Positions 1 to 54,199 of a DNA stretch of 64,000 nucleotides are shown here, piece after piece. Positions within the stretch are counted from its first letter, which is position 1, and each line of letters starts with the position of its first letter. Both the position numbers and the translations under genes were made by a program. Origin of the DNA: Polytrichum commune (taxonomy: Eukaryota; Streptophyta; Polytrichopsida; Polytrichales; Polytrichaceae); NCBI GenBank assembly GCA_950295325.1, contig OX485804.1, positions 7,192,001-7,256,000 on the forward strand, written 5' to 3'. Under the pieces are notes generated by a model. The model was not told where the DNA came from. It did not search any database and worked only from the letters and a program-made list of their open reading frames with translations.

Positions 1-35
1 CACTATAATCATGCTAACACAATCCTACCAACTTC

Positions 36-3280: not shown

Positions 3281-4221
3281 TTTGGGTCGACCGGCCCAAA
3301 CCTCATAAGGGTCGGACTGAACCCCTAACACACTGGGGTAGGGGTTTGGGTCGGTCGACCCAAACTTGATAAGGGTCAGGAAAAAACCCTAACACACTGG
3401 GGTAGGGGTTTGGGTCGACCGACCCAAACCTCACAAGGGTGCATCCACCCACACCAGGTAGGGGTTTGGGTCGGTCGACCCAAACGTGATAAGGGTTAGG
3501 AAAAAACCCTAACACACTGGGGTAGGGGTTTGGGTCGACCGACCCAAACCTCACAAGGGTGCATCCACCCACACCAGGTAGAGGTTTGGGTCGGTCGACC
3601 CAAACCTAATAAGGGTCAGGAAAAAACCCTAACACACTGGGGTAGGGGTTTGGGTCGACCGACCCAAACCTCACAAGGGTACATCCACCCACACCAGGTA
3701 GGGGTTTGGGTCGGTCGACCCAAACTTGATAAGGGTCAGGAAAAAACCCTAACACACTGGGGTAGGGGTTTGGGTCGACCGACCCAAACCTCACAAGGGT
3801 GCATCCACCCACACCAGGTAGTGGTTTGGGTCGGTCGACCCAAACCTGACAAGGGTCAGAAAAAAACCCTAACACACTAGGGTAGGGGTTTGGGTCGACC
3901 GACCCAAACCTCACAAGGGTACATCCACCCACACCACGTAGGGGTTTGGGTCGGTCGACCCAAACCTGATAAGGGTCAAGAAAAAACCCTAACATACTGG
4001 GGGTAGGGGTTTGGGTCGACCGACCCAAACCTCACAAGGGTCAGACATAAACCCTAACACACTAGTGGACAGGTTTGGGTCGGTCGACCCAAACCTGATA
4101 AGGGTCAGACAAAAACCCTAACACACTGGGGTTGGGGTTTGGGTCGACCGATCCAAACCTATTAAGGGTCAGACATAAACCCTAACACACTAGTGGACAG
4201 GTTTGGGTCGGTCGACCCAAA
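3281..4221. repeat. Array A: 16 copies of the TTTGGGTCGNNCGACCCAAA palindrome
   Basis: Sites start at 3281, 3345, 3409, 3465, 3529, 3585, 3649, 3705, 3769, 3825, 3889, 3945, 4010, 4074, 4138 and 4202. Spacing alternates 64 and 56 bp, so the real tandem unit is about 120 bp with two sites in opposite orientation (centre AC then GT). Spacers differ (ggataaggg/ccctaacacactgg type against gtgcatccacccacacc type). Two sites are imperfect (3281 ggcccaaa; 4138 gatccaaa). The array lies between the TATA box of the T_A unit and the T_A start codon, next to a splice acceptor at about 3110, so it is probably inside a 5' UTR intron. Repeated reading frames across it (VWVDRPK, FGSVDPN, GRSTQT) are by-products of the palindrome. 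Confidence 0.95.
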
Positions 4222-4849
4222 CCTCATAGGGTCAGACTCAAAACCCGCCAACACTAGTGTAATGGTGAAGGTTCGCCCAAGTATACTACAAAATCCGGCG
4301 TATAATGCGGCGGATATTGCGTGGTGTGTTGAATTTGAGTTCATTGCAAAGTTCACGGTGGGCTTGCATGGTGTGGATAGGTGCTCATGAACTTGCATGC
4401 TATGGATAAGTGCTCATGAACGGCAACATGCACGAACCTTGAAGTACAGCTCCTACCTAGAGTTCTCTCTACGAATTCGACAGCGGGAGAAGAGAAAAAA
4501 AAGACCGACTTTTGAGGGGTGCGCCCCTTTATACTATCCACCTCCGCTTCCCAGACTTAGTCATTGGATGTCTTCCCCTCCTTCTTCTCTTGCAGAGGTT
4601 ATTTCAAACCTCCTGACAGAATTCCCCGTTTTCTGTTTATAGTAGAAAAATGCGCATCTATCAATGCCCCTCTGATACCCCAGCCGTCATATGACTTAGG
4701 CTATGTTATTTAATCTATTTGTTTTGTTTTGTGTGGATATGACATACGCCATTGGGAGGAAGGGTGGCGGCCACATTAATTTTTTCAAGTATCATCAAGG
4801 TATATTTTAACCAATATGTAGACCCAAACACAACTCCATTCAATGCTTT
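4222..4849 (-). promoter_or_regulatory. T_A unit start and core promoter region
   Basis: On the minus strand this holds a TATA-box candidate (TATAAA, 4533-4528) within a stretch that is closely repeated in inverted orientation at about 15919-16480 in front of T_B. No gene is seen. The unit begins at AAAGCATTGAATGG (4849 downward), directly abutting the terminus of M_A at 4850. Transcription would run toward array A and T_A. The TATA call rests on conservation between two copies and position only. Confidence 0.5.
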
Positions 4850-5424
4850 AACACTATATTCGTTAAATTGAAACTTTTTGGGCATTTTGAGACATTCACA
4901 AAAATAAGAACAAGGATAAATGGAACACATATTGGAGAAAGTTGTAAGATGCGAACACTTTGAAGCGGGTGTTTAGAACAAGATCCCCATTAATAACTCA
5001 TATTTGGGATTGTTTAGGGTGGGCAATCCAAACCTTAGGCCAAGTTGAAGGGGAAATCTTAAAACATTCATATTATCGCACAAAAACTTGTATGAATATG
5101 GTTTAGGTAGGGCAATCCAAACCATAGATCATATTGAAGGGGAAATATGTGAACCAATATAATATAACATACAAAATATTCCAAACTCATATTTGTGATG
5201 GTTTAGGTAGGGCAATCCAAACCTTAGACCATATGGAAGGGGAAATCATGTGACACTTATATTATTGCAAAAAAAACATACAAAGTGTGGCATGTAAAAT
5301 GCATAGCATGCTAACACCACACATCCATTGGATAGTGCGACCCAAAATGTTCTTGCCTATGGCCCACAACCCTACGCCTACTATGGCCTATCTAGCCTCA
5401 GAGACTACCTCTTTTTCTTTTGCT
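4850..5424 (-). other. M_A 3' region with unit terminus and three decayed palindromes
   Basis: No gene is seen. The terminus AACACTATATTCG is at 4850-4862. Three decayed palindromes of the form TTTAGGTAGGGCAATCCAAA lie at about 5012-5033, 5100-5123 and 5200-5223. The same three occur inverted at 32450-32661 in M_B. They align over 22 bp with the intact palindrome, with changes at the CG steps. Confidence 0.65.
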
Positions 5425-6206
5425 TCATTTTCTTTTGCTTTTTTTTTCTTTTGCCTCTTTTTCTTTTGCCTCTTTTTCTTTTGCTGCGGCTTCTTTTGCT
5501 CGCATTGCTTCAACATTCCTGAAAATCTCCGCCCCGCGACTATAGCCATTCTTGGGGTGACCGCCATCAAAAACACATTTTGGATTCCGTCGGCCGCCCG
5601 AATTATACGACGAAGAATTCGAATACGATGAAGTGGACTGTCTTGCATTTCTGGTCATGGAGTAGAAACGCTCCAACTCGACGGACGCACTAGCCCGCAT
5701 AGGTTTACGGGTGGGAGCAACCTGCAACGCGTCAATGCAAGAACACACGTGTTAGTTTAGGGAGGAAGACCCAAACGTGTCACACGTTCATTTTTTAAGT
5801 GCCGGATGATTGTAATGCGCGGTTAACCATGTTTGGGGGGGGGGGGGTTCACCTTGTCACCGGGGGCGTTCCCGTCGGAGTCGGCGAGGAGGGGCAATGC
5901 GTCCCGCAAAGGAATAGGAAGGGTGCCACTCTTCGTAGGCCGAGCGTCCATCCGCAGCCGCCGTTGAGGTGTACTACTGCCGCCGGGCCGAGAGGGGGAC
6001 GTCCGGACGCATTTGCGATTTATGCCCTTGAGCGGCGACGGGGACGGAGATGGCCGGAAGATTTGCTTGGGTGGGGGGCTATCGACGACGCCGGCGTCGA
6101 TAGGCTCCTTGGAGTAGTCGATGGTGGACGCGGCATCGTAGACGGTCTCGTAGAAGAAGCTCCCCAAGTTTGATTCGCTGACGATCTCAATCGAGGGCTC
6201 CAAACG
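5425..6206 (-). CDS. M_A downstream gene: Pro/Ser-rich, Lys-rich tail protein
   Basis: I do not recognise a family. Two exons are supported by comparison with M_B and M': exon a 6206-5853 (acceptor gcgccag, donor acaag|gtgaac) and exon b 5721-5425 (acceptor gttgcag). Exon a has YDAASTIDYS and DSPPP motifs conserved in all three copies; exon b has NSGGRR, GYSRGAEIFR and a highly charged K/E/A tail likely to form a helix. The last frame differs from M_B at the tail: M_A ends in KSKRK while the VVSEAR end is in another frame, so an indel lies in the A-rich tail. A first exon may exist further upstream, because no good ATG opens exon a. It lies 110 bp after the M gene stop on the same strand. Confidence 0.55.
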
Positions 6207-6317
6207 CTGGCGCAAAAAAGGAAACAAAACAAAACCCAAGGGGAGGGGGGAGCATGTGAAAATCGATATACAATTGAGGCATAATATATCACACACAATG
6301 GCACACCATGTAGTATC

Positions 6318-7130
6318 TCAAATGAGTTTATTATATTTCGCGTGAGCGTACAACTCTCTGTACATATAGTCCTTCGGATCCATGTATCTTTCGCCTATCG
6401 GATTACAACTAAGGAACCGGGGCACGGGTAGTCCGCTCCCCACGAGCGTTTGAATGTACTTAAGTAGGTCTAACAAAAAGCGGTCTCGGACCTTCTCGAC
6501 CGTCCACGTGGGGCAAACTATGAAGTTCGAGGTCGGGTTCAAAATGTTTTTGGAAGCGCTGTCGTCCACCATCAACGTGTTGTCACGGGTGGGGCGAACG
6601 TCGTAGGGACAGCCGACCATGGTCGGACGCTGGTCCCATACGACTGGCTTCAAGACCTTAAGAAATTGGTTTACGGCGGGGTTGTTGGGCTTTTTCACAA
6701 CCCTGCCCTCGGGGGTGTATAACGTTCTACAAGAGTCCTGTCCTAGGACCAAGCACGGGGGTTGGAGTCCCTTGAAGATGAACTCCACGACGGCCTGGGT
6801 GTTCTCGGACTTCATGGAGCTCCACACGATCACCCACCATTTGGATAGGGCGACCTGCAGGAAGCGCCGAAGCCACGGGCGGAGGTACACTAGCTTGCTT
6901 TTGATGTACGCGGGGGGACCATCGTAGTTGGCGTCCTCGGGCTTGCAGAAAGGCACCGTGGGGACCCTCGGACAATGCACGCACTGGACAAGGACCCCGT
7001 TGAGGTCTAGCACCAGGAACCGGGTCTTGGGAGGCGAAGGTGGCGAGGGCAAAATCGGGGGGACCACCGCGTTGTCCTCCACACTCCTCGGAGAGGATCG
7101 GTGGGGAGCTGCGACGCTATGCTCCGAACC
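6318..7130 (-). CDS. M_A exon 4: FCP1-type HAD phosphatase domain
   Basis: The exon opens after gccgcag at 7130 in phase 0 with the end of exon 3, so I read it as the C-terminal domain of the M protein, though an independent gene is possible. It shows HAD motif I as LVLDLNGVL, motif II as VWSSM and motif III as LMVDDS, the order of FCP1/SCP-type CTD phosphatases. Motif I has Asn where active FCP1-type enzymes normally have the second Asp (DxDx), a substitution also kept in M_B and M'. It ends HAKYNKLI then a stop, 270 codons. If active it would remove phosphate from a protein Ser/Thr, but the changed motif makes a binding role as likely. Confidence 0.75.
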   Translation of the reverse strand, partial: GSEHSVAAPHRSSPRSVEDNAVVPPILPSPPSPPKTRFLVLDLNGVLVQCVHCPRVPTVPFCKPEDANYDGPPAYIKSKLVYLRPWLRRFLQVALSKWWVIVWSSMKSENTQAVVEFIFKGLQPPCLVLGQDSCRTLYTPEGRVVKKPNNPAVNQFLKVLKPVVWDQRPTMVGCPYDVRPTRDNTLMVDDSASKNILNPTSNFIVCPTWTVEKVRDRFLLDLLKYIQTLVGSGLPVPRFLSCNPIGERYMDPKDYMYRELYAHAKYNKLI

Positions 7131-7624
7131 CTGCGGCGACGAGCGAGAGAAGGCGGACGAGGACTATGTTATGCTATGTCCATCTCAAGCAGAACGGAAA
7201 TTTTGTGCAAACACAAGAAGAATTGGACCATTGGTGGCAACAAAAACATACAAGGGGAACAACATACATTGGGACACGGATGCAAACATATGGGCGCCAA
7301 AAATAATAATTTTATTTTTACAAATCTCTATGTACAATTTGATTGGGGGGGGGGGGGGACCGCGGTGAACGAGGGCATTCACACTATCCTAATTCTACAT
7401 CTACAAAATTGGTTGCGCGCCGCCAAGGTCGAGCATAGTCGAGTGCAGGTGAGACGAAGGGGATCGCGGGGGGGCACGTTGGGGGGAGGGGGAGCAAGTG
7501 TAGAGCATGGGGGGCAGGGGGTGTGCATTTCCTCCTAGCAAGGGGGACACGACCACGCCAACAAGACAATGACCCAGCAAGTTTGGGTCGGTCGACCCAA
7601 ACTGGGGAGGGCTCAGTGTATTAC
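7131..7624 (-). other. M_A intron 3, one palindrome
   Basis: A 494-nt intron, donor GAG|gtaata at 7624 and acceptor gccgcag at 7131. It contains one full palindrome at 7582-7601, close to the donor, and C/G homopolymer runs. The equivalent intron in M_B (30071-30557) has one site at 30093; that in M' has several sites of the other palindrome. Confidence 0.7.
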
Positions 7625-9109
7625 CTCGCCCTGGTCATGTCTCGACGATGTGGAAGCCTCCACCGTCCCCGCTGCCCCGCCTCTCTCGCCACCGCCTTCT
7701 CCGACGACGTCAGGAACCTTCTCCTGCAAACGATCGGCATCAGGCCCTTGTCCTAAACCAATCTCCGCATTTGCATCATGCATGGGTTCATCGATTTGGT
7801 TAGGAGTAGAGGTATCACCAGGCCCTTGCAAGCCTTCAACATCTAGCATGGCCGTGTCTAGTTGACACCCATGTTGGTCAAGGGAGGACTGCGCTGCAAC
7901 GGGGTTTGGGTCGCCCGACCCAAACTGTCCTGCATCTGGAGAGGGCCCTTCGGACACTCCAGTGGATGGTGGGTTTGGGTCGGTCGACCCAAACATCCTG
8001 GGGTCGTCCGATTGGTGAGGGGGCGCCATGACTATCGGGGGCCGAAGTGGTGGAGGGCCCAAAGGGGAGGAGGCTCCAGAGACGCGCCAGATGTTGGGGT
8101 CATCCACTTGCTGGACCGGCGCGTACGGAACTTGGTGGGGCCGAATCAAGTGCTGGAAGCTGAAAGACGATTGCGGCACAGGCTGCTGAGGGATGCTCTG
8201 CGGAGGGAAGCCGGGGGGCAAGTGCGGGAAGGAGCTGGAGGGAGCCACCACCAAACCTTGCGCCCACATTCCTTGTATCACTTGTGATATCAATTTGGCG
8301 TGGGACGGAGGTTGGGCCATCGCCCTCTGTCGTTCCTGCTCCAACAGGAGAGCCCTCAGCTCTGCTACCTCGTTCCGCATTGAGGGTTCTTCCGCGGCAG
8401 CCTTCTGCAGGCGGACTCGCTGCTCCTCGTCCCTCCTCATCTTCTCGTTCGCCTCCTCCACAGTCAGGACCTCGGGCTTCACCCTAACCATGCCAGCGAA
8501 CGCTGTCGGGGACGGGGGATCTGATCTTAGCCGTTTGGCGAGCTCAATGTCATCGTCGTCCTCGCTGCTTATGGCAATGGTCTCCTCCACGGAGTAGTCG
8601 CCATACAGCTTCTTCCCCTTCATCTTCCTCCTCTCCCTGAACGTGGCGGTCGCGTCCCTGGAGTACATGTCCCGTGCATCGTCCACCGTCAGGACGGGCA
8701 CGAGCTTACTCTGCGGGGTTGCCGCCCGCATCGCCTTCTTCCGTTGAGGGGCTTCGGATTCTTGCGTGAAGCCCGTTGCCCCTTCCTCCACGTCGCCTTC
8801 CTTCTCCGCCTCCTCGTGCTCCTCTTCTTCCTCCTCCTCCTCGACATTGCCACCTTCTGTGCGGGACGGATTGCCCGGATGCAACCCGACAAGAGGTTCG
8901 GGTTCTTGGGTTGTGGCCCTCATGGCCATTTCTTCCGGGTTGATCCGCCTCACCCTATCAAGAGGGTTTTCGCCCCCCTGAACAACCTCGTCGACGTAGC
9001 TACCCGGGATCCAATCGAGGATGTCCATCTTCTTCGCCAACGATCTCTGCGTCCTGTAAAATGGCAGATCGCCATCCTCTATGTAGGAGTATATACTCAG
9101 CCCCGACAT
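7625..9109 (-). CDS. M_A exon 3: acidic and Pro/Gln-rich low-complexity linker
   Basis: The exon of 495 codons joins in phase 0 to exons 2 and 4. It starts MSGLSIYSYIEDGDLPFY, then has an acidic run, a coiled-coil-like stretch with KMRRDEEQRVRLQKAAAEE, and a long Pro/Ser/Gln-rich region. Two palindromes lie inside the coding frame, at 7905-7924 (centre cc) and 7974-7993; on this strand they encode FGSGDPN and FGSTDPN. No catalytic domain is visible. M_B has the same two coding palindromes. It is probably a flexible linker between the MTase-like and phosphatase-like domains. Confidence 0.75.
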
Positions 9110-9373
9110 CTACACAATCCAAGTTATATAGACATTAGAATTAGGCGAGGGACATAAACAAGACCAAGTACAATGTGTAATTTGGGTCGATCGACCCAAA
9201 CCAACAAAGAGCCTAGTTTGGGTCGATCGACCCAAACCAACAAAGAGACTAGTTTGGGTCGATCGACCCAAACCAACAAAGAGCCTAGTTTGGGTCGATC
9301 GACCCAAACCAACACAGAGCCTAGTTTGGGTCGATCGACCCAAACTGCGCACGAGTTATAGAAAGTCGCTTAC
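9110..9373 (-). repeat. M_A intron 2 with five palindromes at exact 36-bp spacing
   Basis: The intron donor is ATG|gtaagc (9373) and the acceptor ttgtgtag. It contains five perfect palindromes with centre AT, at 9181, 9217, 9253, 9289 and 9325, each separated by caacaaagagcctag-type spacers. The same intron in M_B holds only two sites (28461, 28497), so the tandem has expanded or contracted since the copies split. Confidence 0.9.
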
Positions 9374-10705
9374 CATGGCAGCATAGATAGGTTTAGAGCC
9401 TCCGAAGACGTTGAAGATGCAATCCCCTCTCCTCGTCAGCGTCCTCATCATTCTCACGTAAAATTCCATCCGCAGCTCATCTAAAGGATAGTTCGCGTAT
9501 TTAGCCTCGTCGTAGAGGCACTTGTTGACACCCAACCCTTCTGGAACTTGGAAGAGTTTGTCCATCCGGGATATAGGGTGGTTCGGCACCTTCAGCAACT
9601 CCGCTTTGTACACGAAGTACAAACACAAGACGTTGACGAACTTGGTCTTCTTGTCCCTCAACGTCGTGTAAGCTCCCTCCGCCGGTGCGGCGATGTAGTG
9701 AGACTTGGAGACTGCATACTCCGGCTGCAGTTTCCGGACAAGCTCGTACACCTGCTCCGCCCTCCTATCCTCGACTATCCAAAGCCAGATATCTACCTCC
9801 CTGAACTTAGGGCTTGCATAATCGACGAACTTAGATAGGAAGGGGTCATAGAAGAGGGTGCTCATCGTGCCCTCAAATGAGCTTCCAGGAATATTCCTGA
9901 AATCAATCATCCCAAAAGGAAAGCGGTCCCTTGCTTTCGTCCTTATCGCCATTCTGGCGTCTTGACCTGGCCAGCCCTGAATTTTCAACGGGTCGGCGGT
10001 GACAAGGTTGAAGTACGCTTCCCCTTCAAACTGGACAATCTTATTCTCCTTGATGAAGTTCGAGAACGCACGCGCTGTGTGATCCGGAAGCGCCCGGTTC
10101 TTCCCACCCTTCACCATCTTGGCCCGCAAGAAGTCGTCCCCCGCTTCCCTTATTAGAGCCGCCATGGAGGCACTGGTGAACTTATATTCAGCTTTGAATG
10201 CTCTCCAGTTAGCCTCATGGACCTCGCCGTCCACGACAATATTCCTCTCTGGCACTAGTTTATGCAGCTCCTGCACGATAGTCGTCTTCTTTTTCCTGTT
10301 ATCCGTCCATTCCTTCATGGTGTAGCATGAAGGAACGAAGGATTTGGGCTTTTGGAAGACAATCTTCGGGTGCACCCAACACCTCTTCGCCGTGGGTGCC
10401 ACGTGCAGGATGTGAGATGCCGCCTTCTCCACCTCCGTCTCTGACAGCCCTTGAAGAGTTCTAAAGAACTCTCTCACGAGAGGCTTCATCTGCTTGAAGC
10501 GCGAGGTTTGGCTGAAGAAAATGCCAGTGTCGGGGTCGATCAAATCCCCCATCTCGTGCTTTTCAAACACGGTTTTCCACTTCCTCCAAACTGAGTCAGA
10601 TGCTGTAATCAAGTAAATCTCCCCCTTGAGGTCGCTGTATTTCTTCTGCTTGTGGCTCGAATTATCAATGGAGGAGAATTTGTTGATCATTTGGTATTTG
10701 AAATC
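9374..10705 (-). CDS. M_A exon 2: methyltransferase-like domain
   Basis: The 444 codons are uninterrupted. The N-terminal part continues the exon 1 protein (DFKYQMINKFSS). Toward the C-terminus it carries LFYDPFLSKF, in the place of motif IV of N6/N4 DNA methyltransferases (DPPY), then DIWLWIVEDRR, and ends with RGDCIFNVFGGSKPIYAAM, in the place of motif I (D.F.GSGT..AA). Motif IV before motif I is the beta-class order. Both motifs deviate from the active consensus, so it may be a non-catalytic DNA-binding fold. ParB-like plus MTase in this order is a known fusion in phage and prophage proteins. The exon joins exon 3 in phase 0. Confidence 0.65.
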
Positions 10706-10963
10706 CTGCACGTCCACAAAACAGAACATTTGAATGCGTGTTAGATATGTACATGTGATTTCCAACCCATATCATGACCAACATCTGCAACAACAGTTTG
10801 GGTCGATCGACCCAAACTAAATAAACTAGCTGCATCAGGAGTTTGGGTCGGTCGACCCAAACTAAATAAACAAGGCTGCATCAAGAGTTTGGGTCGGTCG
10901 ACCCAAACTAAATAAACAAGGCTGCATCAGGAGTTTGGGTCGGTCGACCTAAACAATACTCAC
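10706..10963 (-). repeat. M_A intron 1 with four palindromes
   Basis: The donor is GAG|gtgagt (10963) and the acceptor cgtgcag. Sites are at 10797 (centre AT), 10842, 10888 and 10934 (last with gaccta in place of gaccca), separated by ctaaataaacaaggctgcat spacers of 45-46 bp. M_B has three sites in the same intron. Confidence 0.9.
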
Positions 10964-12289
10964 CTCCCATTTGGGATTCTTGTCCTTCGCATTCTCCCTC
11001 TCCTTGGGAGGCCTACCATAGAACTCCCACACCTCCCGCGAGGCCATGATATTCCTTATCCAGGAAGCTTGGTAGGCCCTCTTCTTATTTCCCATATTGA
11101 AATACCGGGAGATGTCGCTGAGCTTGGTCTCGTCGTCAGACCACACCACTAGTGCCTTCCAAACCTTCAGCTTTTCCTTCTGATTGTTCGGATCATCCCA
11201 CTCATTCATGAGTTGGATTTTCTTGGATGCCTCCACGCTGTGCTAGCCGTCTATCAGCCAAAAATCGCCCTTCTGAATTGTGGGCCACATTTCAGGTGTA
11301 GGCATTTTCTTGAGACCCTGTGGCATCACTACTATCGTTTGCCTGTCGTCTTTAAACTGCTCGCAAACGATCTGCGCGATTATCCAGTCAACGTAGGCGT
11401 CCTCCTTTGCCCGGACACACTTCTCCGGTGGCGCTAGATGGCACTGGCTGATGTTCACGTCGAACTTGAAATCCCTGCCCATGAAAAAACAGTGGGAGCA
11501 TTTCGTCGTGAAATTGTTCACGATTTTCTGCAGCTCCCCTGCATCCACCTCTTCGCCGGGCTTCGGCATGCGCAACTCCGGTGAGACTGGCTCGTCAGTC
11601 ATCACAGATGACTCTCTCCCCCTCTTGGATGGAGTTGTTTGACGGCTCCCAGAAGGTGTAGGCGTCTCGCTATCCGCAGGTGTTTGGGAGGGAGTGGTCC
11701 TCCGCGAGTCAGCCGGTACTGGTCGCGGCTTCCTCACCGATTGAGGTCTTGACGACCCTGCTCCTTCCTCTGTGGTTGCTTTCCGCCTCACGGGTTGCTG
11801 AGACTTGGTTTTGCTCTGCAGGGCTTTGTTGAGCACGCTGATTGCATGCTTTAGTTTCGTGAATCTGCTCGACACCTTTGTGTTCGATGTACTGTTATCG
11901 ATGAATATGGACTCCGGTTTGATGACGTCTGGTTCTACACATGTTTCTTTTGCATAGATAGCGTCAAAGGGTTCGGAGAACTGGTGCATAAACATATGCG
12001 CGTTCTGGACAGCGTTGTTCTCGAGGATGACATCCACGTAGTCTCCAAGAGACTGAACCGATGCCACCTCCCACCCCGTAAGAGTAGCCCATGTGTGCTT
12101 CTCCACGGTCCCAACCTTCACAACAAAAATCATTTTGTATTGCGAACCCTTAACCACTTGTATAGACCACGCGAGGACAAGCCCGTCCTTAGGGGAATAG
12201 GAGTCATCCTGCGGGGTTTCGTGCTCCTGCCACAACATGTCCGGCGCAGGCATGAACCACCTTTCGCCGGGTCTTTTCTTTGGAGCCAT
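10964..12289 (-). pseudogene. M_A exon 1: N-terminal region and ParB-like domain, with a nonsense codon
   Basis: The start is the ATG at 12289 (MAPKKRPGERWF), right after the acceptor ttacag. The first 150 residues are unfamiliar; residues about 160-260 are a Ser/Thr/Pro linker; then comes a domain ending QTIVVMPQGLKK...FWLIDG.HSVEASK. The DG[QH].. turn followed by a helix resembles ParB/sulfiredoxin-fold proteins (DGQHR type). In M_B the codon after DG is CAA (Gln); here it is TAG (11245-11243). The frame is otherwise open across all 442 codons. Without readthrough or editing, M_A would yield only 348 residues, so it is likely inactive. Confidence 0.7.
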
Positions 12290-12922
12290 CTGTAAGAAAA
12301 TAATGTGCAATGTTAGTTTCGGTCGTTCGACCCAAACATCTACGACATGAATAGGTTTAGGTGGATTGTATATTTATATATTTCAGCATCATTTGTATTG
12401 ATAATAAGAATGTTTTGATTATTGGGTGGATTTGCATTTTATATTGTTTGTGACATGCTGGATTACTTGATACTTTTCCTTGATACATTCCTTGATTATT
12501 ATTTTTTAGTGGATGTGAATTTTATATTGATGCAAAAATCATGGATTTCTTTATGAGTTTATAATTAGAAGACGTTGTTTGGGTCGTTCGGCCCAAACAT
12601 GATGCTTTGTTTTGTGTTTGGGTCGGTCGACCCAAACAAGAGGCTGTGTTTGGGTCGTTCGGCCCAAACATGATGCTTTGTTTTGTGTTTGGGTCGGTCG
12701 ACCCAAACAAGAGACTGTGTTTGGGTCGGTCGACCCAAACAAGAGGCTGTGTTTGGGTCGACCGACCCAAACCTGTGGCCGTGTTTGGGTCGTCTCCCCA
12801 AACTTTCCTATTTTAATGTAATTTTTAAAAGTTGGCACGTAGCATATACAATGCTTATGCGTTGTGTATGCTACAATACCTTCAATTGACAAACACTTAT
12901 TGCATATAATAAAAGAAAATAC
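12290..12922 (-). repeat. M_A 5' UTR intron with eight palindromes
   Basis: The donor is AAAG|gtattt (12922) and the acceptor ttacag before the ATG. Sites start at 12317 (tttcggt variant), 12578, 12617, 12649, 12688, 12720, 12752 and 12784 (degenerate, cgtctccccaaac). Two have the right arm gcccaaa (centre TT) and alternate with perfect copies. The M_B equivalent has six, mostly with changed centres. Confidence 0.85.
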
Positions 12923-13819
12923 CTTTGTTGTATGTAGCAGTTGTTGTAAACAGTTGCTTTAGAACAGGTGTTCTTCTTCCAATAACACAGAAACAGTTGA
13001 ATGTAACCTCTCACACAAATCCACAATCTCTCATACAACTCCTAGATCTCTTTTGAATCTCTCAAACAACAATTCAATACTTCAAACAACCTCTGAATCT
13101 CTAAGAACAAGTGAATCTCTCAAAACAATAACTGACTCTCTCAAATGACTTAGATATCTCTCAAACAACAATTGAGTGTTTCAAACAACCTCTGAATCCC
13201 TAAGAACAAGTGAATCTCTCAAAACAATGACTGACTCTCTCAAATGACTTTTGTATCTCTCAAACACCTCCTGATTATCTTATAGAACTCCTAAATCTCA
13301 CAAACTCTCCAACTACAATACAGCCTCCAAAACCCGCAAGCTTAGAATGTTGGAAAACCCTTCAACAATCTTCTACTTACTTCACTCTACAACAATCACT
13401 CTACTAACTCTCACGCACTCTAAAACTCTCTCCTTAGGTTTCTGTTCTATTGCAAACACTTCCTAACTTCTACAGCAAGAGAAGGGAGGGAAGGAGAAGA
13501 ATCAGTAGGCGCCAAAGCAACAAGAAGGGAGGGAAGAGAAGAAAATCGCCACCCTGAATCGCCACGGCGCTTCGCGAAAGCGGCGCTTCAGGAGAGGCGG
13601 CGCTTCCACAAGAGGCGCGGAGCGAATGCTTGGCGCGGAGAGAGAGAGAAAGAGCGAAAAGTTGTGACGGCTGGGGTTTTGTATGCCTCGGGAATTGGCC
13701 CCCAACCGCACGAATAGGGTGCCAACGGGATTAGGATTACGGGGAACCCTAAATCCTAAAGCCAAACTGTAAACCCTTAGCGGGCATTAGTATTTTCAAG
13801 ACACTTTGGAGTACCCTAA
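12923..13819 (-). other. M_A 5' UTR and promoter side, CT-rich repeats
   Basis: No protein gene. On the plus strand about 13020-13420 is a run of short imperfect repeats (ctctcaaacaac, gaatctctca) that would form the 5' UTR exon of the M transcript. The block has counterparts at 24480-24970 and 46970-47350 in the other M units. About 13540-13640 is GC-rich. I could not place a TATA box with confidence. Confidence 0.45.
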
Positions 13820-14350
13820 TGGGGCATTCCCACTTGACTTTAGTTAAGACCCTCACTATTTTATAAAGACCGGGTAAAGCTCCCTCGGTTATAGCGGAGG
13901 CATCCAACTATCCCAATGCACCTACAAGAACTTGCTCCGGAGATTTTCAAGTAGGTTTTAGTTAAGTAGCTTTCACACATGTTCATGGTTTTATCTACCA
14001 AGCAATGAATGTTGGGTAGTTTTTGTCCCATCCCCAAATGCCTTACTACTCACCTATCTTACCATCGGTTTTTGTTAATGAAGCTCCTCGTGCCCTCATA
14101 GCTAAGACTAAAAAGCAACCAATCACAAGGGTGGGAGGCGACACTTTTAAAATTCCTATATTCTTGCCTAATGTTTAGGTACCGATGGGAGCGTCGGTGG
14201 TTGAGGCTTAAAACCTCCACTTTTAAGCCATGCCACATCATTTGCCACCTAGGCTCGGCACTAAAAAGAGCCATATGTGTGAAACCTAGATAACTAAAAC
14301 CGCATTTAGACTAATACTACTTCTAACTAATGTCAAGTGGGAATGCCCCA
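13820..14350. mobile_element. Tourist-type (PIF/Harbinger-like) MITE
   Basis: The 531-bp insertion has inverted ends TGGGGCATTCCCACTTGAC (13820) and GTCAAGTGGGAATGCCCCA (ending 14350). It is flanked by TAA duplications (13817-13819 and 14351-14353). M_B has the empty site (complement of ggagtaccctaaggtgc at about 23150-23171) with a single TAA. A 3-bp TAA target duplication is characteristic of PIF/Harbinger elements. No transposase is encoded; the single open frame at 14059-14274 is not convincing. Confidence 0.9.
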
Positions 14351-14353
14351 TAA

Positions 14354-16213: not shown

Positions 16214-16219
16214 TATAAA
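16214..16219 (+). promoter_or_regulatory. TATA-box candidate for T_B
   Basis: TATAAA in the context gtggatagtataaaggggc, conserved at 4533-4528 before T_A. It lies about 275 bp upstream of array B and 1.8 kb from the ATG, so a spliced 5' UTR across the array is implied. Confidence 0.45.
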
Positions 16220-38810: not shown

Positions 38811-39213
38811 AACACTATATTCGGTAATTGGAGACTCTTTGTTGATTATGAGACTATATAAGGATGCGCATTTCAAAATTGAACCAGTAATGACGACTAA
38901 AAATCCCATATGTATAATGGTATGCTACTATTATTATACATAAAGGCATGGAAGTGAACAAAAATGTGAGCCATACATGAAAATAGTTGCGTATGAAATG
39001 ACAACTCGTTATGAATGGAAGGGAAGGTGCGAAGAATGAATGGAAGTTTAATGAATTAATTGGGATTGAAATACAATTATAATGGAAATACCATCAATGT
39101 CTTGAGTAACTTGGAATAGCATACTAGAAAGTAAGCACTTAAATATGTTCTACACCTAAGCATTTAGGGAGTCCGTCCCACTAGTTTGCTTCTGGTCACA
39201 CTAGTCCGACCCA
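38811..39213 (-). other. M' 3' region
   Basis: No gene. Terminus at 38811-38836; a T/A homopolymer run near 39216-39246 borders the Lys-rich gene. I saw no palindrome of the M' type here. Confidence 0.5.
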
Positions 39214-40140
39214 CTATTTTTTTTTTGCGGCTAAGTCCTTTTTTTTGGCGGCCTCCATGGCTCTAAAAATCTCAGGCCCACGACTGTATCCTTGTGTGTT
39301 GCCTGGACAGGAATATGTGTCGTTCTTGCATGTTTCAGGACGCGCTCCCGAATTGTACGAGGTGGTATTATAAGTAGAATACGAGGGCGTTTGCGAAAGG
39401 GAACGTCTTGCGCTTCTCCGGAGGGCCAGACAACGATCGGACTCGGAAGATGCGGCCTTGAGGGCGTGCCTATCCAAGGAGGACGTGGAGGAGGGCCGGG
39501 CACCAAGCGAGCGGGTAGCCACCTGCGAAACAACGTCATAGGAAGATAAGAATAGGAATGGAGTGAGAAAAATAATGAGGGCGGTTTGGGATGGGCGCTC
39601 GTAAAGAGAACGGCACGCACACGGAAGACAAGCAAAACAAAAGCGGCAAAGGGGTTTAGGGTTGAGGAGGGCACCTTGGCTGTGGGGACGTCCATGCGGG
39701 GAACGGTAGGAACGAGGGGGGCGTCGACGGGAGCATCCGGAGCCGATGGAACTATTGCACTGTTGGATGGCGGGGGGGGGAGTCGAGGCGTGGAGGAATG
39801 GAGTCGGCGGGGGAGGTGTGGCAACGGGGGCCTTCCATGTGGAGACGCCGGCTCGGCCCACGACGAGTGACGGCGTCGTCCCTCGAGGGTGAGAGGTGTC
39901 CCAAACGAACGAGCGTCCGTTTCTCCTTGGAGAGGGGGGAGGGCGACGGGGCGTAGGCGCGGGCGACAAGTGCGGGGGGCGGGCTGTTGACGACGCCGTC
40001 GTCGATGCCGACGTCGCGGGAGTAATCCACGGCCGAGGCCGCGTCGACCGCCGAGAAGTGGTAGAGGGATGGCATTTGGAAGTCTGTGACGTCGCGGGAA
40101 GGGGATGCCGGGGGCGAGAGGGGACGGGAAGGGCCATCGA
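39214..40140 (-). pseudogene. M' downstream gene: Lys-rich protein, frameshifted
   Basis: Homologue of the gene after M_A and M_B. Exon a is about 40140-39675 (acceptor cctgtag, donor ccaag|gtgccc) and exon b 39522-39214 (acceptor tcgcag). LYHFSAVDAASAVDYS and GVVNSPPP are in one frame, but PTVPRMDVPTAK at the exon end is in another, so an indel separates them; a G run at about 39769-39780 is a likely place (true mutation or sequencing error). Exon b has NSGARP, GYSRGPEIFRAMEA and a Lys tail as in the other copies. Confidence 0.55.
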
Positions 40141-40280
40141 CTACAGGGGCGTCGCATATGGGGGCAGACTATGGGCAAGAACAAGAACAAGAACAACAAA
40201 AAACAAAAACAGACATCCAAAAACAGAGCAAGCATTAGATATGTGAACCACATGATAACAAGCAAACACATGGAGGCATT

Positions 40281-41048
40281 TCAAATCAATTTATTGAGTT
40301 TGGCGAGCCTCATGATGCTCTTATATACATTATCGCGGGGGCTTAGCGCCGCATTGCCGAAGGGGTTGGACCTAACAAAAAATGGGATGCTACCGGCGTG
40401 GAGCACGAGCCTTCTAAGGTAGGGGGCTAGCCTATCGACCAAAAATGTGTCTTGCCTATCGCCGGTCCAAGTGTCCGGGAAGATGACGTTGCCCGGGGGG
40501 TTCAACACGCTCTTGGTGGGGCTGTCGTCGATGAGGAGGGTGTTCTCAGGAGTCGGCCACCACCCATGGGGCGTCCCATGCAGACGGGGGACGCCTTGCC
40601 AGAGTCTTGAACGGAGGACCTTGAGGAACTGTTGTCCTCCGCCTCGACCGCCAAACTTGGGCACCGGTCGGCCTTTCTCGTCGAGCAGCTCGTCGCAGTC
40701 CTCTTGGCCGAGGACGAGGCAAGGGCTCGGGAGATCACGGAATAAGAAGTGGACGATGGGCTCTGTGTTGTCCATGACCATGGAGCTCCACACAACGACG
40801 TGGGCGAACTCGACCACCTCGCGAAGGAAGTCCCGCAGGCCGGGACGGGCGCAGACAGCCTTGCGGTTAATGAGGGTGTCGAGCTCGCCGTCGTAGTCCC
40901 TTTCGTCGGGGTGACGGAAGGGACGCGTGGGGACCCTTGGGATGTGTTGGGTGTGACACAACACCCCGTTGAGGTCAAAAACGAGGAACGGTTTGTTCCG
41001 GGTTCGAGGTCCACTGGTCGAGGGGTTGCGACCTATCTCCGGGGGGTC
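40281..41048 (-). CDS. M' exon 4: FCP1-type HAD phosphatase domain
   Basis: The acceptor atcatag|GAC at 41048 joins exon 3' in phase 0, just as in M_B. 255 codons: PFLVFDLNGVLCHTQH (motif I, again with Asn for the second Asp), VVVWSSM (motif II), NTLLIDDSPTKSV (motif III), ending RLAKLNKLI. Relative to M_B there are several small indels. The retained DLNG change in both lineages suggests that it is ancestral rather than decay. Confidence 0.75.
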   Translation of the reverse strand, partial: DPPEIGRNPSTSGPRTRNKPFLVFDLNGVLCHTQHIPRVPTRPFRHPDERDYDGELDTLINRKAVCARPGLRDFLREVVEFAHVVVWSSMVMDNTEPIVHFLFRDLPSPCLVLGQEDCDELLDEKGRPVPKFGGRGGGQQFLKVLRSRLWQGVPRLHGTPHGWWPTPENTLLIDDSPTKSVLNPPGNVIFPDTWTGDRQDTFLVDRLAPYLRRLVLHAGSIPFFVRSNPFGNAALSPRDNVYKSIMRLAKLNKLI

Positions 41049-41672
41049 CTATGATGAACAACGCGACTAGTTTAATTCTATGATCCAATAAAGAAATTGT
41101 TGCGTTGAAAATAAAGACGATGCATTATGGGAAAAGAGGAGGAAGTGAGGAGGGTGCAAGGAGAATGTTTAGAGGGGCACAATTGCGAACGACCGTTCGT
41201 GAATGAAGGCTGCGGGGCGGTGCGCATCATTTACGAACGCGCGTTCGTGAGCGCGGATGCATGCATATACGAACGCTCGTTCGCGAAGGATGTCAAGACG
41301 GGGTCGCATAATTTTACGAACGAGCATTCGTGAGTGAGGTGTGCATGCAAAGAATGCAAGGACGCGCAAGAGCACATACAACACAAGACGCGAGAATATG
41401 CAATAAGTTGAGGGGATGCGAGCAGAGATCGTCTGCTCATATATTAATTCGGTGAATATGTACATTTGTCTCACGTGATAATCTATCACAATTTCCTAAG
41501 GAAAAAATGCAGTGTCCTACAAAATTGATCGGCCCAAGCGATCACGTAGAAAAATGCTCGCGCGGGCAACGTGATGTCGATGGAGTTGAAGCGCCAAGAA
41601 CACAACGCGGGGGGTTAGTGATATTACGAATGCGCGTTCGTAAAACATTTGGCATTCTCAGAGATGAGTTAC
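41049..41672 (-). repeat. M' intron 3 with five palindromes of the second type
   Basis: Sites TTACGAACGNNCGTTCGTAA (variants included) start at about 41183, 41231, 41267, 41314 and 41624. Most have one altered arm end (cgtga, gcgaa). Donor GAG|gtaact at 41672. Confidence 0.85.
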
Positions 41673-43076
41673 CTCTTTGATTAACGAACGCGCGTTCGTA
41701 ATATCCATTGGGGAAGCAGCCTCTGGATCCATGACCTCCGTTGGACGCTCCTCCTGAGACGACTGGGTCTGTTGGATGAGCTCCACGTCGTCGTCCCCGC
41801 CCAGGTCGAGTCTCTCCATGCGGACATCCTCCATGTGCGCGGACGGATGTCCTTCCTGGTCAGGGCTCTCCACGACCATCCCACGCGGACCTGCCGAGTC
41901 ATTGGGGTTCCCCTGCGTTTCCTCCACAATGACCATGTCAGTGTGTTGCGCAGTGTCATCGCCCCGCCTATCTAGAACCCTTGGGACGACGGTGAAAGAG
42001 GCCGTGTCGGTGCCTGTGGGCAGTCCTACCCTTGAAGGGGAAGGGGTGAGGATTGCCGGACCTGAAGATTCACGAACGCGCGTTCGTAAATCTTCATCCT
42101 CCCTTAGCGCCGCCGTGATTGCATCGTGGGAGGTTGAGGCGGCCGCCGTCACTTCCGGGGGCAATGGACTTCCCGCCGGCGTTGGGTGTGGCGCTGTTTG
42201 GTGGGAAGGCCCTCCTTGGTACATGACTGGAGGTGGGGGTTGTGAGGGGTATCCTCCAGGGGGGAAGGGGTAAGGTTGCTGGACCGGCGCAGAGAGGCTC
42301 TGCATGTTTTTGAGCATCTCGAAGATGGCGTCGGTTTTGGCCGCTGAATCCTTCAGCTGCTCTTGCAGCCTGGCCAGATGCTTCGCGCTCTCCTCCTGTG
42401 CTGCAGCCATCTCCTCCTTCATCTTCGCCTCCAGCTTGGCGTTGAGCTCAGCGACGGTGAGTGCCTCCTCCTTCACCCGCTTGTTCTTGTCGTAGTCCAC
42501 GCCAAGCTCGGCCATGATGTCCATGTCCCCCTCGTCCTCGTCCGAGACCTCGATGATTGCTCCCGGCGGCAACTTCACATATGGAGTCTTCTTCATCCTC
42601 CTCCTCGTGTTGCGGAAGAGGTCCAAAGATGGCCGCGAGCGTTGGTCGAGGATGTCCAGGGTTTCCATCTTCGGAACCACGGCGGGCCTTGGAGACTGTG
42701 ACGTCGAGCATCCGCCTGGCGCTCCGAAAGGCTCCGCAAGAGATGTTCTCGCCGGGAGGACGTCCAGGGTTGTCCCCGCGGACGACCTGGTGTAACCACC
42801 CGGCGTCCCTTGAGGATCGGGAAGATCCGTCGTTGGCGGCAAGATCCGAAGTGGGGGTACGTCGAAGGACTGCAGAATGGCGTCCACGTTGGCGGAGGGG
42901 GTGGGCTCGTCGTCCTCAGAATCGTGGAATGGTATGCCCTCGTCGGCGGGCATACTGAAGTCCATCCTGGGGACAGAGATGTCCTTGAGGTCCATCGTCG
43001 ACGCCTTCGCACGGTGGATCTTGAAGTCTTCTTCGTCGATAGCGTCAATGAATGTGTTGACTACGAGACCCATCAT
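41673..43076 (-). CDS. M' exon 3: low-complexity linker with coding palindromes
   Basis: 468 codons beginning MMGLVVNTFIDAIDEEDF (acceptor ctgtgag/cag, 43076). Pro-, Ser- and acid-rich, with a charged helix LNAKLEAKMKEEMAAAQEES that aligns in position with the helix in M_B exon 3. Palindromes lie in the coding frame at 42070-42089 (encoding RTRV) and 41682-41701 near the 3' end (encoding ITNARS). The sequence hardly aligns with M_B, but layout, composition and embedded palindromes are shared. Confidence 0.7.
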
Positions 43077-43298
43077 CTGTGAGAAGAGAGCAATAAGGTC
43101 AGAAAATACAAACGCACGTTCGTAAACATCAAAGCGTAGCGTGCAACGAGTTTCAAGCATTACATTATGAAGGGGTTATGTTTACGAACGAGCGTTCGTA
43201 AACATGAATGCGTCACGTGCAGAGACTGTGAAACAATACATTGAGAAGTTGGTTAACTTTACGAACGAGCGTTCGTAAATGGAGTCTAGACAACTTAC
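43077..43298 (-). repeat. M' intron 2 with three palindromes
   Basis: Sites at about 43106 (atacaaacg variant), 43182 and 43259. Donor ATG|gtaagt, same position as in M_A and M_B. Confidence 0.88.
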
Positions 43299-44624
43299 CA
43301 TGGCCGCATACATGAATTTGGAGCCTCCACATACGTTGTATACCGTCTCTCCACTTATAACCAGACTCTGCAATACAGAGACGTAGAACTCCATCCTGAG
43401 TTCCATGGCGGGGAAGACGGTGTAGAGGGTCTCTTGCAGCAGATCCTTGGGAGGGGGATGCGGGATGCTGTAGATTTTCTTGAACGTGTTGTTTGCCTTG
43501 ATAGGTGGTCGCCCATCCCTTAGCTCATTGTACGTCAAGAAAATCAGGCTGACCGCTCCCACCTGCTTGTTGCCCCTGGCCTCGTTGATGGCCACAATCC
43601 CCTCCGTCTTCGCTGGCACGTACGTGCTGTGGAAGATGTTGTACTCGAATTTGATCTTCTGCTCGTACAGCTCTGTGACCACAGACAGCTTCTCTTGTTC
43701 GACTATCCACAGCCAAACGTGTGGCTCCCTCATGGCCGGCGATTTGAACTCCATGAACTTGGCCATGAAAGGGTTGTAGAAGGGAATGTCCTTCCCCCCC
43801 TGCCTTGACGCACCCGGGATCCCCCTGAAATCGATGAGGGCAAAAGGGCAACCCCGTCGATCCTCCCTCACCTCGGCCCTGTTGATGGTACCGTCCCACT
43901 TGGAAAATATGACCCTCTCCACGCCGGAGGTGATCACGCAAAACCTTGCCACTCCTTCGAATGTGGCGTTCCTCTTCCTCTCCAAAAATTTTAAGTACAG
44001 CATAACCTCATGGGGATCCGTGTCGGTTTTCTTAGTCCTTTTGTTCCCCTTCAACTTCAAAACCGAGGCGTGCTCCTTGACCAGACTGCGCATGGAGGCT
44101 CCGTTGATGTTGTAGTCGACCTTTAACATTTGCCATTGCGGCCAGATGATGTCGCCGTCGACTTCAAAGATTCTGTACTCTGGTACAAGTACGCTCAACT
44201 CTCTCATGGCTGCAGTCTTCAGCTTCCGGTGGTCACACCACTCTTTGATAGAGTACGTGCCGGGCTTGTGCTTTGGCCTCTTCAAAAAGATCTTGGGATA
44301 GGGAAGGGTTCTTCCCACGGTGTTCCCAAGAACATGAATCGCACACCTCTTCAGCTCTGACTCCGTCAATCCCTGGAGGTGTCTAAAGAACTCCCTCAGT
44401 AGTGGGGACGCTTCACCGGTTTTTTCCGTGTTGTACTTCTCCTCCGTCTCGGGGTTGACCAAATCGCCCGAGTTGTGTGCATCAAAAAACTGGGTCCACA
44501 AATCCCATGTGTCCCTGTTGCAGCAGATCAGTCTGAGCTCACCCTTCAGCTCAAGCACAGACTTTGTGGTGGTGGACTTCATATCGATGGAAGAGAACTT
44601 GTCTACCATCGCGTCGCAAAATGC
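43299..44624 (-). CDS. M' exon 2: methyltransferase-like domain
   Basis: 442 codons, open throughout, starting AFCDAMVDKFSSIDM (aligning with DFKYQMINKFSSID). The motif IV position reads PFYNPFMAKF, the following segment HVWLWIVEQEK, and the motif I position GETVYNVCGGSKFMYAAM. The Asp of motif IV is Asn here, so both lineages deviate from active consensus but keep the positions (WLWIVE, LRMEFYV, GGSK). Ends ATG in phase 0. Confidence 0.65.
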
Positions 44625-44740
44625 CTGCACAAAACAAGATGTCAGTATTGCACATAATACGAACGCACGTTTGTAAAGCACGTCAGTAATTGATGTTTTC
44701 GTGAGTCCAACACTTTACGAACATTCGTTCGTAAACTCAC
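44625..44740 (-). repeat. M' intron 1 with two palindromes
   Basis: Sites at about 44657 (gtttgtaa arm) and 44715. Donor AAG|gtgagt at 44740, 6 bases from a palindrome; acceptor ctgcag. Confidence 0.88.
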
Positions 44741-46033
44741 CTTCCATTGAGGAGATTGGTTCTTGGCGTTCTCCCTCTCCTTTGGTGGGCATCCGTGTGC
44801 CACCCAGACGTCTCTCGCAGCCACTATGTTAGCCGCCCACGAAGCCTCGAACGCCTTGATTTTGTTCCCCGAGTTCAGGAAGGTTGAAATCTTGCGCAGC
44901 TTGTCCCAATCGTCCGACGAGACCAAAAACGCCTTCCAGTACCGCAGGTCAGCCTTCAGCTCGTGCTGGAAGTTGTCGTCCTTGAGGATCTGTTGCGACG
45001 CCTCCAAGCTATGCTGACCATCTGTAATCCAGAATTCTCCATTCTGGATTCGCGGCCAATCCATCTCTGTCGGTCAGGATGTCAGCCCCTTGGGCATGAC
45101 GCAGACGGTCTGCCTATCCCACTTTACGTTGTTCATGAGGTTGTTGATCTGCCACTTCACCCCACCGCTCTCGCGAGACCTTATCACCCACTTGTTGGGG
45201 GACTTTTCGCACTTGAAGCAGTCCACGTTGAACGTGAAGTGGCGCCCCATGGGCCAGCAATCCTTTGAGTAATTATTGAAATCTCGTAGGATCTTTGTTG
45301 CCTTCACTGCATCTGGATTCTCACCCTTCTTTAAAGGGGTTGGCATCAGGGGAGGAGAGCTCACCTCAGCGCCCTCTGTTACCCCAGACCTCTCCATTTC
45401 GTCCCGGGACCTCTTCGATGGCGTGGAATGTCGGTTGGGACCCTCCGTCACCCTGCTTGCGGAAGGCACCGGCCTGGGTGCACTTCTCGATCCTCTTGCC
45501 CCGGATGCTGATGGTTTTCGTGGGCTCTTCTTCTTCTTGTTGGCTTCGGCGACCGCGCTATTGTACTTGGAGATATTCAAGGAAAGCGCGGCCAACTTCC
45601 TTGCTGTCCAGTACGAGCTCAGGGCGTACTTCGTAAACAGGTCCTTGAGGAAGTGTTTGGCATCAGCCACTACGTTATTTTCTGCGTATGTGTAGGAGAA
45701 ACTATGTCTCCTGTACTCTAACAGGAGGTTAATGTGATCCTTCTTATTTTTCATGTCTAAAATCACATAATCTCCTTGTGCCTCAATTGATTCTACTTCC
45801 CAAGTCTTCATCTGCACCCATTGCTCTGGCTGGTCCGGCGTTGTTTCCAGCTCGTAGGTCAAGCGAAGACAGAAAAGACCGTCTGATGTCTTCTCTGGCA
45901 GTGCCGTCCATTCCCCAATGAAGTCCTCCTTCGGGACATAATTATCGTTTCCGTTGGGGTCGGACACTGACTCTGGTAGCTGATCTATCTGCACTGCGAA
46001 CATCTCAATGGCGCTCCTGCTCGGTCTAGCCAT
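44741..46033 (-). pseudogene. M' exon 1: ParB-like domain, with an in-frame TGA
   Basis: ATG at 46033 (MARPSRSAIEMF) after acceptor tctgcag. 431 codons in one frame, with one TGA (45076-45074) after QTVCVMPKGLTS. Downstream in the same frame FWITDGQHSLEASQQIL keeps the DGQHS motif and PPKERENAKNQSPQWK matches the end of M_B exon 1. The TGA aligns with KK in M_B (GLKKMPT). Middle: Ser/Pro/Lys linker. The stop would cut the protein before the DGQHS segment, so the copy is inactive unless the stop is bypassed. Confidence 0.7.
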
Positions 46034-46937
46034 CTGCAGAGCACATAAACATTTAGTATTGTGTTTACGAACGAGCGTTCGTAATTGACAAGCAAATCAT
46101 ATATACTAATCAATGAACGCTGGCTATGGGTACCCGTGAGGAGTTTTAATTATGTCTTCGCTGATTTCATTTACAAACGATCGTTCGTAAAGAATGTGGT
46201 TGCTAAGGTGTATTTGACACAAGTTTACGAACGTGCGTTCGTATTGTTTGTAAACAAGTCCACGAGTTGTCCAGTGTTATCTAATTTCCACGAGGGCTGT
46301 TCGAATTTCCATGAGCATCTTCTAAATAGGTGAATTAATACTTTAGTTCTTAATTACGAACAATTACCATTAAGGGTTTGGGATATTATTATAGTTTGTG
46401 ATTACGAATGTTCGTTCGTATTTTTGTATGTTTCATTTGGATTTGAGGATTTGAGGATGTGCAGGGTATAGACGAATATACGAACGTGCGTTCGTAAAAA
46501 TGGAGGGTGAGGTGCGTATTTACGAACGCACGTTCGTATATGTTTGTGGGGTAAGGCATGTTTTCACGCCACATTTACGAACGAACGTTCGTAAATGTGG
46601 TCATCTGGGATTAGGAAATGGTATATTTATTTATATACATATATCCGTACATATACGTATACGTATATGTACATATACGTATATATGTTGTTATGAATGT
46701 TGCGATCTGGCATTGTTCATGATCCTGCAACTCGTGATCAGATTGATGAAACACAAGTGAAAAATGGAATCAGAACAAAATTGCGAGTCAGTGATTGATA
46801 GTTCAGAATGAAGAGGAAAGTGTTATTTCATACAAAACATGCCATACCTCATAATGCAGAAAACAAATCACAAGGAATTCATCAAACAACAATTTCAGAT
46901 TGTGAAGGACTGATTTGTAAAGGAAACTTGTACTCAC
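46034..46937 (-). repeat. M' 5' UTR intron with seven palindromes
   Basis: Sites at 46065, 46171, 46225, 46402, 46478, 46520 and 46575. Centres vary (AG, AT, TG, TT, CA, AA). Also a palindromic AT microsatellite (catatacgtatacgtatatg) about 46627-46690. Donor AAT|gtgagt about 46937. Confidence 0.85.
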
Positions 46938-54192: not shown

Positions 54193-54199
54193 GGGTGAG

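Follow-up and report, generated by a model that had tools for sequence, protein, structure and literature searches.

Palindromic sites with exclusive arms follow the lineages of a two-gene DNA transposon in Polytrichum commune

We analyzed a 64,000-nucleotide stretch of the Polytrichum commune genome (GenBank assembly GCA_950295325.1, contig OX485804.1, positions 7,192,001 to 7,256,000), referred to below as the window. It contains three copies of a gene that we call M (M_A, M_B and M') and two copies of a gene for a DUF7869 protein (DUF_A and DUF_B). The two genes belong to one DNA transposon, present as element E1 (M_A and DUF_B), element E2 (M_B and DUF_A) and a more distant M' element. Leaders, introns and one exon of these genes carry palindromes with a constant CGNNCG core, whose arms are TTTGGGT in the A/B-type elements and TTACGAA in the M' type; the two arm types are exclusive and follow the lineages of the elements. 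We suggest that the palindromes are probably bound by a protein that the transposon itself encodes, most likely M. The best reading by analogy is a reader that co-diverges with its sites, resembling in its working the VANC proteins of Arabidopsis VANDAL elements but unrelated to them as a protein.

Palindromic sites and their arms

The two consensus sites are TTTGGGTCGNNCGACCCAAA (TTTGGGT type) and TTACGAACGNNCGTTCGTAA (TTACGAA type). Allowing up to three mismatches, the former occurs 71 times in the window, between 3281 and 32344, and the latter 19 times, between 41183 and 46594; chance means by shuffling are 0.04 and 0.01, and the two spans are disjoint. A scan blind to arm sequence found 58 perfect 7-CGNNCG-7 palindromes, 54 with TTTGGGT and 4 with TTACGAA arms, compared with a mean of 0.05 and a maximum of 1 in 20 first-order Markov windows. 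The initial annotation had described two 20-bp families of common 7-6-7 design, with no site of either type in the units of the other. The families and their split by lineage are real, and no cross-type site was observed, but the length differs: the A/B palindrome is 22 bp, an outer G and an outer C each being present in 34 of the 35 array sites and in 32 of the 33 sites of M units (up to two mismatches), whereas that of M' is strongest across about 18 bp and weakens at its outermost bases. The sites occupy equivalent positions, as had been noted for the introns and the exon, namely the leader, introns 1–3 and exon 3 of all three M genes; the DUF7869 genes, DUF_A and DUF_B, have them in their leaders too. 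Window scans at up to three mismatches found no palindrome in M exons 1 and 2, the DUF7869 coding region or the satellite. Three weak A/B matches (two or three mismatches) lie elsewhere in the elements, at 5327, 23292 and 32325. Rfam and tRNA scans of the window were empty.

The sequences around the sites are diverse. Clustering by flanks (threshold, 16 of 24 bases) assigns the M' sites, 19 in number, to 19 contexts and the 71 A/B sites to 19 clusters, indicating that duplication alone is insufficient to explain them. Tandem Repeats Finder detects a 76-bp tandem pair in M' intron 2 (43117–43279) and also the large A/B arrays. Departures from the consensus are one-sided at 45 base pairs, two-sided but uncompensated at one, and compensated at none. 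Thus it is the sequence that is conserved and not the pairing, and a hairpin function was rejected. The retention of an identical sequence amid unrelated flanks is as expected for protein-bound half-sites.

Exclusivity of the arms extends to the source genome (407.8 Mb in 64 contigs), which contains 9731 exact TTTGGGT palindromes and none of the reversed control. In arm-blind scans, all 117 perfect palindromes of E1, E2, E4 and E5 have TTTGGGT arms, and all 32 of E6 and E7 have TTACGAA arms. E6 is complete, with a 4-bp target-site duplication (TSD) of TGAT; E7 is incomplete, its left end lying outside the sequence taken. Each has its own DUF7869 gene, 56–66% identical to those of the window, with a TTACGAA leader array of 10 sites; E7 pairs with the M' copy L030 and E6 with the M' copy in L045 (about 82–83% over most of exons 1 and 2). 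Since both genes of the M'-type copies carry TTACGAA, the key differs in both genes at once. A genome search with M' exon 2 returned 1171 candidates, 95 of which were scored (25 at 94–100%, the window's own included, and 70 at 83–86%). The 20 copies taken for palindrome reading (4 of the 25 and 16 of the 70) contain 36 perfect palindromes, 35 TTACGAA and one ATACGAA, none inside exon 2; no TTTGGGT-like site at up to three mismatches is present in any of the 20.

Protein searches yielded 96 relatives from public sequence collections. The predicted proteins often extend into introns, so their residues can be used to test which palindromes they allow. Exact sites number 76 in 3263 non-coding read-through residues and 34 in 40,322 coding residues, while 50 shufflings of the non-coding stretches gave a mean of 2.62 and a maximum of 7. 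CGNNCG ranks first among the 16 symmetric cores (76 sites; next best 26), in agreement with the shared core proposed initially. The arms compatible with the relatives' sites are TTTGGGT, TTTCGGT, TTTGGGC, TTTCGGG, TTACGAA, TTACGGA and TTACGNC (taken as TTACGGC), implying about seven arm types on a fixed core, two of them read in DNA and five predicted from intron read-through. The TTTGGGT and TTACGAA arms are therefore not unrelated, as had been thought: they have TT..G in common and are bridged by single-step variants in relatives and by hybrid sites. Hybrids occur within the A/B elements, for example TTTGGGT..GCCCAAA at 12578 and TTTCGGT..ACCCAAA at 12317, and relative P0005 has both TTTCGGT and TTTGGGT sites, so that arm switching looks gradual.

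A site at no more than one mismatch is present in 61 of the 96 relatives, none of which combines TTT- with TTA-type arms; 35 proteins have no site. Free mixing is thus not found between the deep types, whereas near types do co-occur within a clade (P0005, P0010). The expectation that arms would correlate with phylogeny was borne out by the exon-2 tree (78 rows, 38 labelled, labels fitting both TTACGAA and TTACGGA dropped), on which arm type changes 8 times against a label-shuffle mean of 21.1 and minimum of 16 (1000 shuffles). The TTT clade has 3 changes, a count equally low in none of the 1000 shuffles, and the TTA clade 4, equally low in 4 of 1000. The seven canonical arms were picked after inspection of the data, and the labels of P0032, P0051 and P0068 are based on one-mismatch sites; label shuffling ignores relatedness by design and therefore demonstrates clustering on the tree, not its cause. 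The exon-1 tree (17 rows, 15 labelled) has 3 changes as a raw count, and the sisters P0013 and P0014 differ in arm.

The transposon and its genes

The M and DUF7869 genes had been taken as separate units; they are instead two head-to-head genes of one transposon of about 16.7 kb. The head-to-head junction and the TSDs rule out separate units, and likewise a rolling circle or a tandem array. What had appeared as a shared 3' end of the M and DUF7869 units is the terminal inverted repeat (TIR). The A/B type ends in a 28-bp TIR and a 4-bp TSD; in E1 the TIR is AACACTATATTCGTTAAATTGA(A/G)ACTTT at each end, with one mismatch, at the left end. The flanks of E1, when joined, match an uninterrupted junction in L019, and such a junction is present in both L018 and L019. 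E1 is nested in the intergenic junction of E2 (Table 1), whose left end lies at L022:9505, with 496 bp of E2 beyond the left edge of the window. The TSDs of two further A/B-type copies, in other parts of the genome, are ATAA and AAGT. Counting copies with both ends, a matching 4-bp TSD flanks 4 of 4 A/B-type copies and the single M'-type copy, E6, whose TIR differs at 3 of 28 positions; the A/B-type tally leaves out the copy at C1:1.18 Mb, whose left end is outside the sequence taken. The elements thus have the TIRs and target-site duplications of class II TIR DNA transposons. For the M' transposon, no right end was found within the window, nor any DUF7869 match right of 47000 there.

The exon junctions are the same in M_A, M_B and M'. 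M_B is open across its three phase-0 exons (1379 codons) and reaches 1650 codons including the stop with the NIF exon, which matches PF03031 (E 1.6e-13 for the M_A copy). In P0019, a relative from ENA, the first junction is read through, without an intron. The ratio of non-synonymous to synonymous divergence (dN/dS) between M_A and M_B is 0.13, 0.24 and 0.30 in exons 1, 2 and 3, and M coding is under constraint. M_B and M' are 37%, 38% and 30% identical in the same exons. DUF7869 is the only domain found in the scanned parts of the second gene, with a PF25273 match of E 1.4e-41 in the DUF_A copy (36–1550), and its protein is a candidate transposase.

Table 1. Coordinates of elements, genes and palindrome groups in the window.
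Feature	Coordinates	Strand	Remarks
Inner transposon E1, 16,747 bp	4850..21596		M_A leftward, DUF7869 (DUF_B) rightward; bounded by 28-bp TIRs and flanked on either side by the TSD CTTT
Outer transposon E2, right part (M_B)	21597..32823	+	Same TIR as E1; TSD CCAT at both ends
Outer transposon E2, left part	1..4849	-	DUF_A gene and leader array
M' transposon	38811..47350	-	Left end 38811, TIR AACACTATATTCGG; assembly gap at 47351, other repeats beyond
M_A gene	7625..12289	-	Exons 12289-10964, 10705-9374, 9109-7625; exon 1 contains a stop codon; all splice sites in phase 0
M_B gene	25554..31372	+	Exons 25554-26879, 27100-28431, 28592-30070; in-frame NIF-phosphatase-like exon 30558-31372
M' gene	41673..46033	-	Exons 46033-44741, 44624-43299, 43076-41673; single stop codon, in exon 1
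DUF7869 gene region (DUF_B)	17970..21065	+	Open reading frames
16 TTTGGGT palindromes, array	3281..4221		Leader of DUF_A
20 TTTGGGT palindromes (up to 3 mismatches), array	16490..17795		Leader of DUF_B
7 palindromes	12317..12771		M_A leader
4 palindromes	10797..10953		M_A intron 1
5 palindromes	9181..9344		M_A intron 2
2 palindromes	7905..7993		Within M_A exon 3
1 palindrome	7582..7601		M_A intron 3
5 palindromes	25125..25526		M_B leader
3 palindromes	26890..27008		M_B intron 1
2 palindromes	28461..28516		M_B intron 2
2 palindromes	29702..29790		M_B exon 3
1 palindrome	30093..30112		M_B intron 3
7 TTACGAA palindromes (up to 3 mismatches)	46065..46594		M' leader
2 TTACGAA palindromes	44657..44734		M' intron 1
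3 TTACGAA palindromes	43106..43278		M' intron 2
2 TTACGAA palindromes	41682..42089		M' exon 3
5 TTACGAA palindromes (up to 3 mismatches)	41183..41643		M' intron 3

Several other features of the window were observed. Synonymous divergence between M_A and M_B falls along the gene (0.26 in exon 1, 0.11 in exon 2, 0.06 in exon 3 and 0.06 in the NIF exon), and the stretches 4850–13785 and 24069–32823 are 85% identical on one side and 96% on the other of a break near 9240–9290; this gradient suggests gene conversion or recombination between the copies. The X region of E1 contains, at 13820–14350, an insertion resembling a miniature inverted-repeat transposable element; its inverted ends are some 20 bp long or longer, and TAA flanks it on either side. 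L020:2133–2582 matches 13910–14354 at 96%. Short telomere-like TTTAGGG/CCCTAAA runs lie inside the X region at 15011–15048 and about 22465–22495. The satellite at 32824–38812, with 75- and approximately 224-bp units and a CpG observed/expected ratio of 0.24, is where E2 and apparently the M' element are inserted. To the right, at 47551–64000, several copies of a repeat of about 1 kb bear perfect palindromes of their own, GACTTCCATNNATGGAAGTC and GCGCTGTCCCGGGACAGCGC.

Candidate readers of the palindromes

We favor M as the reader because the sites concentrate in its own introns and the arms follow the M tree. A symmetric dimer of M protein would contact the palindrome, with one arm and the constant CG recognized by each half, and the constancy of the core suggests an interface that is in part fixed. 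The sites cluster in the DUF7869 leader and, within M, in the leader, the introns and exon 3, so that bound protein would cover the regulatory stretches of the two genes in its own copies. Most likely, such binding would maintain the activity of these copies or leave them unsilenced, much as VANC acts on VANDAL; the function would be, by analogy, anti-silencing or activation. As lineages split, protein and sites may shift together in small steps via hybrid sites, until a deep lineage recognizes no copies but its own. Binding, the identity of the binding protein and its effect are what we infer from these patterns.

Several observations weigh against M as a private reader. M had been described as ParB-like plus methyltransferase-like. 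No DNA-binding domain is established in M, and the ParB likeness is weak: phrog_1033 matches 5 of 31 members (best E 0.031), DUF6551 matches one of 31 at E 0.03, below cut-off, and no Pfam ParB match above cut-off was obtained with the M_A and M' exons or with the 31 relatives and exons. M does contain a DGQHS motif, which we take to be possibly of ParB/Srx type. Methyltransferase likeness went undetected in Pfam, PHROGs, NCBIfam and PDB. Nor are the palindromes confined to the elements. Of the 9731, 100 listed sites all come from near one end of contig C1; the three M/DUF7869 elements there account for 81 of them, and 19 lie outside such elements. TTTGGGT arrays, all of whose perfect sites are TTTGGGT, also occur at five sampled loci of other repeats (L012, L014, L016, L020 and L021) that are without M or DUF7869 similarity and without an M/DUF7869-type TIR. 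Lineage-specific palindromes that co-diverge with the element are supported by both genes of six copies, by the 20 further M' copies and by the exon-2 tree; the arrays in other repeats speak partly against them. The CpG observed/expected ratio is 0.67–1.78 in the M genes with leaders and introns, 0.24 in the neighboring satellite and 0.56 further right. The leader arrays of DUF7869 and the X regions, at 0.49–0.61, are as low as that right-hand sequence. This comparison is confounded by coding content and nothing is built on it, nor on a CpG-decay signature at the sites, which we rejected (C>T/G>A in 7 of 7 CpG changes in M' but 1 of 4 in A/B).

The DUF7869 protein, the presumed transposase, could itself be the reader, using the sites for a transposition complex or for regulation of its own gene, with M doing another job; the arm trees, after all, were built on M exons. 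The DUF7869 leader holds the densest arrays, with 16 and 20 sites in the window and 10 apiece in the two M'-type copies, and DUF7869 has also diverged between the types. Transposase sites are usually located at TIR-proximal ends, however, and here those ends lack sites save weak matches, as does the DUF7869 coding region, while sites occur throughout the M introns and exon 3. We consider this assignment unlikely. Alternatively, M or a partner might modify DNA at the constant CGNNCG, as self-marking or as a decayed methylation system. The CpG-bearing core is constant across arm types, and L016, a different palindrome-bearing repeat, encodes a methyltransferase-like C-terminus (L016:7239–7721; phrog_67 E 3.8e-6, Pfam N6_N4_Mtase E 0.021, below cut-off). 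For M itself, the database searches for a methyltransferase were negative and no DPPY-like motif, a methyltransferase catalytic motif, was seen by eye in exon 2, and modification appears quite improbable. The L016 repeat (2562–7721), which bears TTTGGGT arrays, has open reading frames with a DGNHR motif, ParB-like by eye; a profile comparison of M with these frames gave no significance.

The arrays in repeats lacking M or DUF7869 similarity would fit a host-encoded factor whose sites the elements merely gather, but two exclusive arm types in related elements of one genome, with arms that follow the element's protein tree, speak against it, and we judge it very unlikely. Structural hairpins or passive tandem repeats with no reader at all are scarcely credible: many copies do lie in tandem arrays, but the lack of compensated changes, the unrelated flanks around the same palindrome and the strict arm exclusivity all speak against them.

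Relation to known systems

Palindromic cis sites in clusters are typical of ParB-parS systems, which the present one resembles in its clustered palindromes and in the possible ParB/Srx-type motif of M; it differs in being a eukaryotic transposon and in having no ParB profile match of weight. No relatives were found in viral contigs or prokaryote genome contigs and no palindrome in viral contigs; phage searches gave one chance match by tblastn (E 5) and none by megablast. It is possible, if doubtful, that a ParB-like protein loading on clustered parS-like palindromes in its own genes and introns constitutes an independently evolved system of private addressing. The CpG-bearing core would be kept, the arms would serve as a changeable key that steps via hybrid half-sites and insulates sister lineages, and other repeats would parasitise the TTTGGGT key.

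CACTA/EnSpm transposons have TIRs that begin with CACTA, TSDs of 2–3 bp and an accessory protein, TnpA, with repeated cis sites. The present TIR contains CACTA, and an accessory protein with repeated cis sites is putative here, but the TIR begins AACACTA, the TSD is 4 bp in every complete copy and the sites are not subterminal; the elements do not belong to CACTA/EnSpm as defined by a CACTA-initial TIR and a 2–3-bp TSD. Fungal DNA transposons reportedly carry a TET/JBP dioxygenase gene; they are alike in having a putative epigenetic helper gene aboard, although the protein is a different one. We found no publication on DUF7869 in the literature collection searched and, among the matches listed, Chara and streptophytes included, no comparable transposon-palindrome-ParB/methyltransferase or anti-silencing system.

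The closest parallel is with the Mutator-like VANDAL elements, whose VANC protein binds its motif and removes methylation. In Arabidopsis, VANB and VANC carry VANDAL21 motifs in their introns, and further motifs lie upstream of VANA; VANC motifs are 8–9 bp, non-palindromic and often in tandem repeats, and related VANC proteins differ in their motifs and target separate groups of elements (PMC5735166). The present elements likewise carry a motif repeatedly, both within introns and ahead of the gene for the presumed transposase, DUF7869, and related elements have different motifs. They differ in their 18–22-bp palindromes with a constant CGNNCG core, 4-bp TSDs, the DUF7869 gene and an M protein in which the VANC domains DUF1985 and DUF287 were not found (Pfam; M_A and M' exons 1–3 at E up to 10, the 31 relatives and exons at E up to 1). 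The TTTGGGT arrays at the five loci indicate that other repeats share the key, a situation reminiscent of AT9TSD1, a non-VANDAL element affected by VANC6 (PMC5735166).

A joint change in specificity of a DNA-binding protein and its many genomic sites is rarely visible. Here specificity switching is directly testable, given about seven implied arm types on a fixed core, intermediates in the form of hybrid sites, and a single genome that holds two exclusive keys. If M does counter silencing, sequence-specific anti-silencing would have arisen more than once, from unrelated proteins, and the system may be a source of new epigenetic tools.

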